Below, piece after piece: positions 3,230 to 36,363 of a DNA stretch of 41,559 nucleotides. This DNA is from a virus. The DNA is taken from positions 1-41,559 of the IMG/VR virus record IMGVR_UViG_3300031825_000365, one strand, 5' to 3'. Made by a program: the position numbers and the translations under genes. Numbering within the stretch: position 1 is the stretch's first letter; each line of letters opens with the position of its first letter. The notes beneath the pieces were generated by a model. It was given only the letters and a program-made list of their open reading frames with translations, made no database searches and was not told the DNA's origin.

Positions 3230-3436
3230 CGTCGCGGCAGCAATTATCATGTGAGTTCAAAATGCAGGCAGCAAAGCGAGTCACCGATCTAGGGCACAAG
3301 GTCGGTGACGTTACGACACACTTGGGTATGAGCAAGCACAACCTGTATGCGTGGCCCAAACGCTATTCGGGCAATCCCAAAACAGGGCGTACGGCAAGAT
3401 GACCAGAGCGCGGCGGTCCGTCAGCTAAAAGCCTAG
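3230..3436 (+). pseudogene. IS3-family transposase orfA remnant (frameshifted)
   Basis: The translated segment EFKMQAAKRVTDLGHKVGDV...LGMSKHNLYAWPKRYSG matches the helix-turn-helix N-terminal half of IS3-family OrfA (typically E-F-K-.-E-A-.-.-.-.-.-.-.-G, then LGVS.-LYAW.K.Y). The expected start is decayed. The frame then breaks near 3400: it stops at 3400-3402, but a neighbouring frame continues QDDQSAAVRQLKA to the TAG at 3434-3436, which is the expected continuation of OrfA. No orfB follows. It is a dead insertion-sequence fragment. Confidence 0.75.
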
Positions 3437-27127: not shown

Positions 27128-27202
27128 TGGTTGCGGCGGCAGGAAACGAACCTGCGACCTCCGGGGTATGAACCCGGCGCGCTACGACTGCGCTACGCCG
27201 CG
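27128..27202 (-). tRNA. tRNA-Met(CAT), initiator-like
   Basis: On the minus strand a 75-nt cloverleaf with encoded CCA: acceptor CGCGGCG/CGCCGCA, D-arm GCGC, anticodon stem CCGGG/CCCGG with loop TTCATAC (CAT at 27168-27170) and T-arm GCAGG-TTCGTTT-CCTGC. The first acceptor pair is C1-A72, a mismatch that is a hallmark of bacterial initiator tRNA, and three consecutive G-C pairs precede the anticodon loop as in tRNA-fMet. The D-loop is short (AGTCGTA), and 11-24 is C-G rather than the initiator-type purine-pyrimidine pair, so the identity is mixed. Confidence 0.8.
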
Positions 27203-27210
27203 AAAATGAA

Positions 27211-27243
27211 AAGCCCCGACCGGAGAATCCGTATTGAGGCTTA
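27211..27243. repeat. Terminator-like hairpin repeat, copy 1
   Basis: AAGCCCCGACCGGAGAATCC, then GTATTGAGGCTTA. It closely resembles the strong terminator at 28239 and separates the first and second tRNA genes. The outer stem has decayed compared with copy 2. Confidence 0.5.
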
Positions 27244-27248
27244 TGCAG

Positions 27249-27342
27249 ATGGGCGGCCGGAATTGAACCGGCGTCCTCATGCCGTGCTTCGTTCTCGTTT
27301 AACTCTGCACACCATGCGCTCTATCCGCTGAGCTACGCCACA
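27249..27342 (-). tRNA. Degenerate tRNA-like gene with enlarged anticodon arm
   Basis: On the minus strand it keeps TAGCTC-AGCGGATA-GAGC (D-arm), AGGAC variable region and T-arm GCCGG-TTCAATT-CCGGC. The inner acceptor pairs GGCG/CGCC hold, but the three outer positions do not pair and no CCA is encoded. Between D-arm and variable region lie 39 nt instead of the usual 17. These form an extended stem CATG..GTGC / GCAC..GCATG with a large loop. Probably a tRNA pseudogene or non-canonical RNA. I cannot assign an anticodon. Confidence 0.55.
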
Positions 27343-30377: not shown

Positions 30378-30433
30378 GAACGAGCTCCCGTTATCCGTTA
30401 GGTTTCAACACAAACCTTACAATAGGGAACACA

Positions 30434-30467
30434 CCGGGAATACTGTATTTTTATACAGTATTCCCGG
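30434..30467 (-). promoter_or_regulatory. LexA (SOS) box in a 15-bp perfect inverted repeat, upstream of ndpA-relA/spoT operon
   Basis: CCGGGAATACTGTAT-TTTT-ATACAGTATTCCCGG is a perfect 15-bp inverted repeat. The core CTGT(8 nt)ACAG (30443-30458), flanked by TA, is nearly identical to the consensus LexA box. On the minus strand the box contains TATAAA, a candidate -10 element, so LexA would block RNA polymerase directly. Confidence 0.8.
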
Positions 30468-30504: not shown

Positions 30505-30532
30505 AAAAAAACCCGCCTAACTGAAGACGGGT
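30505..30532 (-). terminator. Rho-independent terminator after the Q-position gene
   Basis: ACCCGTC-TTCAGTTA-GGCGGGT followed by seven Ts on the minus strand, 75 bases downstream of the Q-like stop. Confidence 0.88.
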
Positions 30533-30605
30533 CTGCGGGCGCACTTGTTCAAAGTGACTAAACAGGACGAACTTTAGCAGATAAAATTCAGTCCCGCAAG
30601 AGGCT

Positions 30606-31875: not shown

Positions 31876-32852
31876 AGATGCACCCCGAAATCAGCACGAG
31901 CACGGGCCTTCTGTTCCTCGGTCAGGTTGGCGGCGCGCAGCACTCGCATCTTGAAGTCGGGCGGGGTTTCTCCATCCTCCTGACGCAGGCCCAGGGCGTT
32001 TCCCTTCGCGACGATGCCGGGCCACGACTTCAGCCAGGCAAGATCATCCTCAGCGACGGGGCCGCCGCTCTCGGCCTTCTGCTTCTCGTACCAGGACGCC
32101 TTGAAGCCGGCCCAGGAGTTTTCCGCAGCGATCCGCACAGCGTCACCAGCCGAAAGCCCAGCCTTCGCCGCCTCGGTCTTCACGCCATCCCAGGCGGTCT
32201 GCGTCAGGGGCAATTCCTTGACCTTGCGCACCTTGAGCCAGTCCAGAGCCACCTGCAAATCGACGCCTTCGGCAACCAGGTCATCAGCCGTCACGGTGTC
32301 GGCGGGTTTTCCGGGTTTCGTCTTTCCGGATTTTTTGGGAGCACTCGGCGCGGCAGCGCCGGCCTGACGCTTCCTTGATGATTCTGATGGTTTATTGATG
32401 GTTCTATGCGGGTGCAACCCGTTGCACCCTTTACTGTCGTGTTTTGCACCCTTTTTGCTTTCGTTTGCACCCTTTATGTCGTCGTTTGCACCCTTTTCTC
32501 CATCATCCGTAAAGGGTGCAAATTTTGCGTTTGACGAATTTCCGGCGTGGTCTTCCAAGCCTTCAATCGCACCGCCTGCAATCCAATCAGCCGAGATTTG
32601 GTACTCCGTGACCTGGCTGCGCCCCCCGTGACCTGCGCTGACGCGAATCAGCCAGCCGCAGTCACGCATCTTCTTCAGCTGGTACTGCACCGCACGCACC
32701 GATTGGCGCGTCTTGTCGGCCAGGTACTCCACCGAGGGGAAAATGTGGCTGCCGTCGTCGTGGGCGTGGTCGGCCAGAGCGAGGGCAAGCAACATCTCGC
32801 CGCCCCCGTTCGGATACCGCTTAAACACCATCGTCATGACTTCAACGCTCAT
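31872..32852 (-). CDS. Replication initiation protein (O-like, helix-turn-helix, 326 aa)
   Basis: A 326-aa replication protein starting at the ATG at 32852 (ATGA overlap with the YbcO-like gene). The N-terminal winged HTH (residues ~8-95) contains GGGEMLLALALADHA, FPSVEYLADKTRQSVRAVQYQLKKM. A low-complexity Lys/Gly/Asn repeat region (about 110-150) is encoded by direct repeats, as in lambda O where the iterons lie inside the gene. The C-terminal domain (about 190-326) is helical. No helicase loader or helicase gene follows, so host DnaB would have to be recruited. Confidence 0.8.
   Translation of the reverse strand: MSVEVMTMVFKRYPNGGGEMLLALALADHAHDDGSHIFPSVEYLADKTRQSVRAVQYQLKKMRDCGWLIRVSAGHGGRSQVTEYQISADWIAGGAIEGLEDHAGNSSNAKFAPFTDDGEKGANDDIKGANESKKGAKHDSKGCNGLHPHRTINKPSESSRKRQAGAAAPSAPKKSGKTKPGKPADTVTADDLVAEGVDLQVALDWLKVRKVKELPLTQTAWDGVKTEAAKAGLSAGDAVRIAAENSWAGFKASWYEKQKAESGGPVAEDDLAWLKSWPGIVAKGNALGLRQEDGETPPDFKMRVLRAANLTEEQKARARADFGVHL
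32410..32521. repeat. Iteron array within the replication gene (candidate origin)
   Basis: TTGCACCCTTT occurs at 32422, 32444, 32465 and 32486, with an inverted copy AAAGGGTGCAA at 32511-32521 and a shorter inverted GGGTGCAA at 32410. The direct copies start 21-22 bp apart, two helical turns, as expected for iterons bound on one DNA face. They encode the KGAN/KGAK/KGCN repeats of the protein. Lambda's origin is likewise inside gene O. Confidence 0.7.
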
Positions 32853-35329: not shown

Positions 35330-35338
35330 CTTTCGCCA
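35324..35338 (+). promoter_or_regulatory. PRM-like promoter; cI transcript probably leaderless
   Basis: TATAAA at 35324-35329 lies eight bases before the cI ATG (35338), and no Shine-Dalgarno is present. The expected start of transcription falls at or next to the ATG, as for the leaderless cI mRNA of lambda. The -35 region is poor, as for activated PRM promoters. Confidence 0.55.
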
Positions 35339-36363
35339 TGACCACCCAAGAAATCCGACGGGCGAATCTCCGTGCCTGGGTCCAGCAGAATGGAACCCCT
35401 AGCAAGGAGAAGAGCTACTTCTCGCAAGTCCTTTCCGGCACCGCCCCCCTCGGAGAGCGAGCCGCGCGTCGCCTTGAAAAGGACTATCGGATGGGTGAAG
35501 GCTTCTTAGACACGCCCCAGGGTGACTCGCCTGTAATCCCGGAAGCACCGCCACCCACCCCATGGCCTTTCGCGACTATTCAAGAAGCCGACATACGCGC
35601 CTTGCCCGCAAGCCAGCTGAGCGCTCTGGAAGGCGCCATGGCGCTTGCAATCGCTCAGATGGGGCTGGGGATGGCTGTCGCCCCGCCCGCGTCTTCTCGC
35701 CCGCTGGCTGCGTCTCGTGGCGGCCTGGTGGACATGGATGCCGCAGACGATCCGTTTCGGATGCGAAAGGGCGAACTACCTTCTGCTCCATGGGAAGGTG
35801 GCAAAACAACCCTCCTGGCAGAGCGTGAGAACAAGGTTCGAATCAGCACCCGAGCTGGCGTTATCGCCAATGTTGGCCCAGGTGAACCACACGCGGCGAA
35901 CGATAAGTTCGAGAAGGTTCCCGAGATGGCCGACGTGCGCCTGGCGGCCGGCGACGGCATAGAAAACCTAGTGGAAGAAGAAACCGGAACTGTTCAGTTC
36001 CGGCGATCCTTCTTGCGCTCGGTTGGCGCCGGCGCAGGGAAAGCCCGTGTTGTGTACGCCAAAGGCGACAGCATGGAGCCAATCATCCGGGATGGGGCGG
36101 CCTTGCTGGTTGTGCCCAACGAGAACCTCACCTTGCAGGATGTGGCCGCAGGCGGTGTGTACGCCATCAACTATGACGGCAAGATGATCGTAAAGACAGT
36201 GACGCAGGACCGACTGACGAAACGCTGGGTTGCGCGTTCGTTCAATCCCGCGCATCCCGACATTCCCCTGGAAAACGGCACCCCAGTTCGCGTGCTCGGA
36301 CAGGTTGTGTGGGCAGGAACTCGCCTGCGCGACAACGAATCGGGCCAGTGGACGCGTTCATAG
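35338..36363 (+). CDS. cI: CI-type repressor with S24/LexA-like domain (341 aa)
   Basis: The lysogeny repressor. The N-terminal ~60 residues form the HTH (RANLRAWVQQNGTPSKEKSYFSQ..), a linker follows, and the C-terminal S24 domain carries the active Ser (S245 in AKGDSMEP) and Lys (K286 in GKMIVKTV). An Ala-Gly pair (A204-G205 in RLAAGDG) is about 40 residues before S245, a possible self-cleavage site in SOS. It is 341 aa, longer than lambda CI, because of the extended Ala/Pro-rich linker. A strong terminator follows. Confidence 0.92.
   Translation: MTTQEIRRANLRAWVQQNGTPSKEKSYFSQVLSGTAPLGERAARRLEKDYRMGEGFLDTPQGDSPVIPEAPPPTPWPFATIQEADIRALPASQLSALEGAMALAIAQMGLGMAVAPPASSRPLAASRGGLVDMDAADDPFRMRKGELPSAPWEGGKTTLLAERENKVRISTRAGVIANVGPGEPHAANDKFEKVPEMADVRLAAGDGIENLVEEETGTVQFRRSFLRSVGAGAGKARVVYAKGDSMEPIIRDGAALLVVPNENLTLQDVAAGGVYAINYDGKMIVKTVTQDRLTKRWVARSFNPAHPDIPLENGTPVRVLGQVVWAGTRLRDNESGQWTRS

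Follow-up and report, generated by a model that had tools for sequence, protein, structure and literature searches.

A predicted LexA operator upstream of a YejK-like and alarmone synthetase operon in a temperate phage and related mobile elements

The analysed stretch of DNA, a virus record of 41,559 bases (hereafter, the window), carries a two-gene cassette encoding a homologue of the nucleoid-associated protein YejK and a small alarmone synthetase-like protein, preceded by a predicted LexA operator (SOS box) embedded in a long perfect palindrome. From the sequence of this site and its recurrence in front of related operons, we consider it very probable that host LexA keeps the cassette repressed during lysogeny and that it becomes expressed upon DNA damage. 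The function served by such control is a separate and less settled matter, for which we put forward a tentative proposal below.

The palindrome and the predicted LexA operator

The palindrome consists of two 15-nt arms, CCGGGAATACTGTAT (30434–30448) and ATACAGTATTCCCGG (30453–30467), which pair at 15 of 15 positions around a TTTT centre (Table 1), exactly as claimed in the original prediction. No other short-loop inverted repeat in the window is as long, and arms in 25 dinucleotide shuffles did not exceed 11 nt. Nested within this longer repeat, again as predicted, lies a perfect CTGT-N8-ACAG core, and the asserted match to the SOS-box consensus holds over a wider stretch: the 20-nt site TACTGTATTTTTATACAGTA agrees with the LexA-box consensus TACTGTATATATATACAGTA (quoted in PMC8072944) at 18 of 20 positions. 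CTGT-N8-ACAG occurs once in the 41,559 bases; since chance would yield 0.28 occurrences, these 8 bases carry little weight by themselves. The extended pattern TACTGTAT-N4-ATACAGTA, searched with up to three mismatches, also occurs once (0.01 expected). The long outer arms of the palindrome are not explained by LexA.

Table 1 Features at the cassette locus, in coordinates of the window
Feature	Position	Strand	Basis or remark
Gene 2, small alarmone synthetase-like, 324 aa	28342..29316	-	PF04607, phrog_32462, fold, invariant residues
Gene 1, YejK/NA37-like nucleoid-associated-protein homologue, 354 aa	29313..30377	-	PF04245, phrog_1974, YejK fold match
Candidate -10 element TATTGT (tentative)	30419..30424	-	Common to Achromobacter relative L010, alignment by eye
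Perfect inverted repeat, 15-nt arms, 4-nt centre	30434..30467	.	Outer CCGGGAA/TTCCCGG arms not kept in relatives
Predicted LexA operator (SOS box)	30441..30460	.	Half-sites 30443-30446 and 30455-30458
Intrinsic-terminator-like hairpin with T run	30509..30534	-	Pattern match only, 1.2 expected in shuffles

The two-gene operon and its phage surroundings

Gene 1 starts with a GTG codon 65 nt past the end of the box. Its product scores above the cut-off for the NA37 family (E = 2e-9, 37.5 bits, cut-off 24.6) and matches phrog_1974, and the sole significant fold match of its predicted structure (mean pLDDT 80) in the PDB is E. coli YejK (9be2). Because the TM-score of this match is only about 0.4, the domain arrangement of the protein is uncertain. 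By its PF04245 domain and YejK fold, gene 1 is a member of the NA37/YejK family, with a putative capacity for DNA or nucleoid binding. The start of gene 2 overlaps the stop of gene 1. The encoded protein comprises a RelA_SpoT domain (PF04607, E = 9e-16; also phrog_32462) and a helical C-terminal part, its fold matches B. subtilis SAS1 and S. aureus RelP, and it is matched by the PADLOC candidate model PDC-S33 (E 1.6e-9). Residues R52, K54, D77, R82, Y125, H129, E152, Q154 and R156 of the synthetase, along with others, are invariant in 34 homologues. On the basis of domain, catalytic residues and SAS fold, gene 2 encodes a small alarmone synthetase, whose predicted products are (p)ppGpp or (p)ppApp. 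The operon had originally been described as a RelA/SpoT pair; this does not hold, as gene 2 alone has a RelA/SpoT domain and gene 1 is YejK/NA37-like. Among loci found via gene 2, every intact one with enough upstream contig has an NA37-like gene directly before the synthetase gene, and the pair thus represents a conserved operon, whose gene order and overlap are compatible with the layout of toxSAS toxin–antitoxin systems. Split synthetase frames were seen in two loci. In a Neisseria gonorrhoeae genome (L029:3951-5995) the gene seems divided across two frames, with gene 1 open, and in a Melainabacteria-labelled metagenome contig (L028:115-1139) a synthetase homologue is split into two overlapping frames, which could be a sequencing error.

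Elsewhere, the window encodes a CI-like repressor of the S24 family (35338-36363), a CII-like activator and an O-like replication gene, and can therefore be assigned to a temperate phage. Its terminase shares 88% identity with its counterpart in Bordetella phage PHB09, and the closest relative of gene 1 that was found (70%) comes from Achromobacter, which together make an Alcaligenaceae-like host likely. In or beside the O-like gene (32422-32522), TTGCACCCTTT is repeated four times with a spacing of 21-22 nt and is also present as an inverted copy; these iteron-like repeats are a candidate for the phage replication origin. Downstream of the cassette, there are two minus-strand tRNA genes (27131-27339).

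Along the minus strand, the terminator-like hairpin comes first, followed after 42 nt by the palindrome and then by the two-gene operon. Transcripts of the replication operon upstream would stop at the hairpin, and if it works, the cassette needs a promoter of its own in the ~130 nt that hold the palindrome. This arrangement, in which a terminator-like site parts the operon from the replication genes, accords with the original proposal that the cassette is controlled separately from the early and late promoters of the prophage. A scan detected no strong consensus sigma-70 promoter at the site in the window, and the -10 element in Table 1 is tentative. Overlap of the box with a promoter is plausible by eye in relatives L002 and L009. 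In L002, the box is located between TTGAAT and TATCAT, spaced by 17 nt (alignment by eye), a layout enclosing the box such that bound LexA would block the polymerase.

Conservation of the box and alternative readings of the palindrome

Relatives of the operon were gathered from viral contigs and genomes. Scanning genome contigs with the gene-1 alignment yielded no matches; the gene-2 alignment worked. In a tree of 43 gene-1 proteins, the window falls into a clade of 16 members (support 100/100), the operons of which come from prophages and integrative elements. Twelve of the 16 have a perfect CTGT-N8-ACAG upstream and one more (L010) has it with a single mismatch, whereas in the remaining three (L011, L023 and L026) no upstream box was found. 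In seven members, 51-69 nt separate the end of the box from the start, and in the rest this distance reaches up to 136 nt. Per 200 nt of upstream sequence, window shuffles predict 0.0013 boxes and the density in these loci, true sites included, predicts 0.012. Loci L067, L071 and L072, which were found after the pattern had been noticed, carry perfect boxes too. It should be noted that the 12 box-bearing members are not independent, as some are close kin (L002, L003 and L005; also L071 and L072), and three elements are near-copies. On the tree, three state changes (for example, one gain and two losses) suffice to explain the distribution of the box, versus 11 with shuffled labels. The sequences flanking the boxes have diverged to the shuffled level (median 0.59 versus 0.57 shuffled), and the relatives keep the CTGT and ACAG half-sites while the outer CCGGGAA arms are lost. 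This is the reverse of what the original prediction had named as evidence of another function, namely, loss of the core with persistence of the outer palindrome.

Outside the clade, a search of 350-400 nt upstream detected no perfect box in any of the 27 relatives, so the idea that LexA controls the whole family was abandoned; the predicted LexA-type control is specific to one clade. Nor does the cassette in general need it, given that these 27 relatives as well as L011, L023 and L026 do without the box. The possibility that an adjacent HTH regulator replaces LexA outside the clade was likewise dropped, as homologues of the HTH protein in question are absent upstream of the other members. That idea had been prompted by a P2-like prophage of E. 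coli L725 (L108:3234-5687), in which an HTH gene is followed by genes for a nucleoid-associated protein and a GTP pyrophosphokinase, and a perfect CTGT-N8-ACAG falls within the HTH gene, at 3408, some 180 nt ahead of the gene for the nucleoid-associated protein.

Several further sites of this type were observed in the collected loci. A second LexA-like sequence with one mismatch, CTGGGGTTNTGTACAG, is kept 76-78 nt before gene 1 in L002 (4923-4938), L003 (4925-4940) and L005 (4925-4940), where a perfect box is also present at about -151. Additional perfect copies of CTGT-N8-ACAG adjoin a frame resembling an SOS-response-associated peptidase in L009 (6853-6868) and are found upstream of a small opposite-strand gene in L002 (7138-7153 and 7205-7220), both assignments having been made by eye.

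The motif also recurs in front of host lexA genes. Perfect boxes precede lexA in an Achromobacter (L059), a Paraburkholderia (L060) and an Alcaligenaceae bacterium (L061), all of whose genomes carry the operon. One Paraburkholderia lexA box, CTGTATTTTTATACAG, is letter-for-letter identical to the window core; this match bears on the motif and not on the locus, because the operon of that genome (L011) has no box. When up to two mismatches are allowed, the window core with its flank is present in 32 of the 61 Achromobacter-family genomes, and a reversed control pattern in none; Pfam matches gave no informative identities for host genes adjoining similar 21-mers in these genomes. Judged from the lexA boxes of L059-L061, the motif is one that host LexA would recognise, the likely host of the phage itself being assigned through relatives. 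At the sequence level, the LexA reading of the original prediction is thus upheld by retention of the core in 12 of the 16 clade operons (13 with one mismatch) and by its presence before lexA.

These results also bear on what else the palindrome might be. It could be an operator for a regulator other than LexA, such as the CI-like S24-family repressor of the phage, and phage operators are indeed palindromic. A repressor, however, usually binds at multiple sites around the gene encoding it, whereas the window holds no second copy of this site even with three mismatches, on which ground an operator of the phage's own repressor was discarded; moreover, the site is found before the operon in unrelated prophages and integrative elements, and before host lexA genes. 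A non-LexA operator is accordingly very unlikely. We give still less credence to the palindrome acting as an RNA hairpin, whether terminator or 5′-UTR element. Such a hairpin would be very stable if transcribed (-48.8 kcal/mol, z -7.2, for the folded 111-nt stretch), but the repeat is not flanked by a T run on either strand as in an intrinsic terminator, it was not flagged in the terminator scan, and a real terminator-like site exists further upstream. Relatives preserve CTGT/ACAG and not the pairing of the outer arms, which, together with the missing T run, led us to reject the terminator reading. Finally, roughly one shuffled window in four contains a bare CTGT-N8-ACAG, and one might attribute the palindrome to chance, with no regulatory role. 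The length of the arms, beyond anything in the shuffles, and the recurrence of the box at the same position in 12 of the 16 clade members speak against this, and chance, already contradicted by conservation, has a negligible probability. A LexA operator is, in our assessment, the preferred reading of the site.

Proposed role and comparison with known systems

Under LexA control, the repressor bound to its operator within the palindrome would shut a promoter in or beside it, and the cassette would be silent in the lysogen. DNA damage would give rise to RecA filaments and LexA self-cleavage, allowing the cassette to be expressed. The synthetase would then most likely produce (p)ppGpp or (p)ppApp, or pyrophosphorylate another substrate, for example, tRNA, as some toxSAS do, so that the cell slows. 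The YejK-like protein encoded alongside may either bind DNA or hold the synthetase in check. The most probable advantage would be that competitors are stopped or the element is protected during damage.

The cassette is found in different types of elements: in L084 and, judging from gene order, in L004 and L086, it lies amid head and tail genes; in L085 it adjoins an integrase fragment; and in L082, together with its box, it neighbours genes for an integrase and a TraI-like relaxase. No copy was detected in PHB09, a related phage. Such a distribution suits an accessory cassette. A part in defence is plausible because CapRel, a RelA/SpoT-domain protein, is reported to be defensive (PMC9712102) and a YejK nucleoid-associated domain was validated in E. 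coli anti-phage defence according to the main text of the DefensePredictor study (PMC13092281). We entertain defence or dormancy as the role of the cassette, at somewhat less than even chances. More speculative still is the generalisation that mobile elements, mostly of Burkholderiales, carry a LexA-silenced, SOS-gated immunity or dormancy cassette that would be freed by damage, such as that from an invading phage or an induced competitor.

LexA control could also be real with the cassette serving the lytic programme of the phage, for example through host growth shutdown or DNA reorganisation after induction, an explanation that competes over the role and not over the site. As expected for its family, the CI-like S24 repressor of this phage would also be inactivated by the same damage signal, and the cassette would consequently be switched on together with the lytic genes. 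Nevertheless, there is no lytic programme next to the boxed cassette of L082, and the cassette occupies differing places in different phages, as an accessory gene does; a lytic role thus appears rather unlikely.

If LexA control is confirmed, mobile DNA would hold a stringent-response enzyme that answers directly to the regulator of the DNA-damage response, and two stress systems usually treated separately would be connected. The operon, in which the YejK-like and alarmone synthetase genes are strictly paired, is widespread, yet annotated by domain only, and LexA control in one clade would make mitomycin C a ready condition for finding the function of the cassette.

LexA-boxed prophage genes, LexA-controlled toxin–antitoxin modules and alarmone synthetases of mobile elements are each known. 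Neither their combination nor a YejK-like and synthetase operon under LexA is described in the open-access papers searched, an absence that is weak evidence. A LexA box precedes the prophage gene tum of phage 186, and the LexA-boxed prophage genes known to us control induction or dinI-like functions. Gifsy dinI homologues and antirepressors are reported as prophage genes located behind host LexA boxes and induced by DNA damage (PMC8072944; PMC3121763). The operon in the window likewise has a host-type LexA box before a prophage gene, but it governs genes for a YejK-like protein and a predicted alarmone maker rather than factors for induction or dinI-like functions. A growth-slowing module under LexA also has a parallel in tisB/istR, in which tisB encodes a type I membrane peptide toxin. 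That module is LexA-regulated (PMC8072944); in the present cassette, gene 2 is a putative toxin gene and gene 1 a putative antitoxin gene.

With toxSAS, CapRel and the prophage-encoded Phrann gp29, reported as RelA/SpoT synthetases of mobile DNA, some of them proven to act against phages (PMC9712102, PMC11782079, PMC6426606), the cassette shares a RelA/SpoT-domain synthetase on mobile DNA and a two-gene or fused toxin–antitoxin layout. It differs from them in its YejK/NA37-like partner, its upstream LexA box and the sequence and fold of gene 2, which are closer to the housekeeping SAS1/RelP than to CapRel. For the YejK system of DefensePredictor, the main text names no partner (PMC13092281). 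E. coli YejK has the Pfam family NA37 in common with gene 1, besides the fold match, but is distant in sequence, and the gene 1 type, in the mobile-DNA loci collected, always has an alarmone synthetase as its partner. The yejK gene of Salmonella, by contrast, is chromosomal and has no alarmone synthetase partner. It is, all the same, a candidate SOS gene, with a LexA box and induction by DNA damage (PMC8072944).
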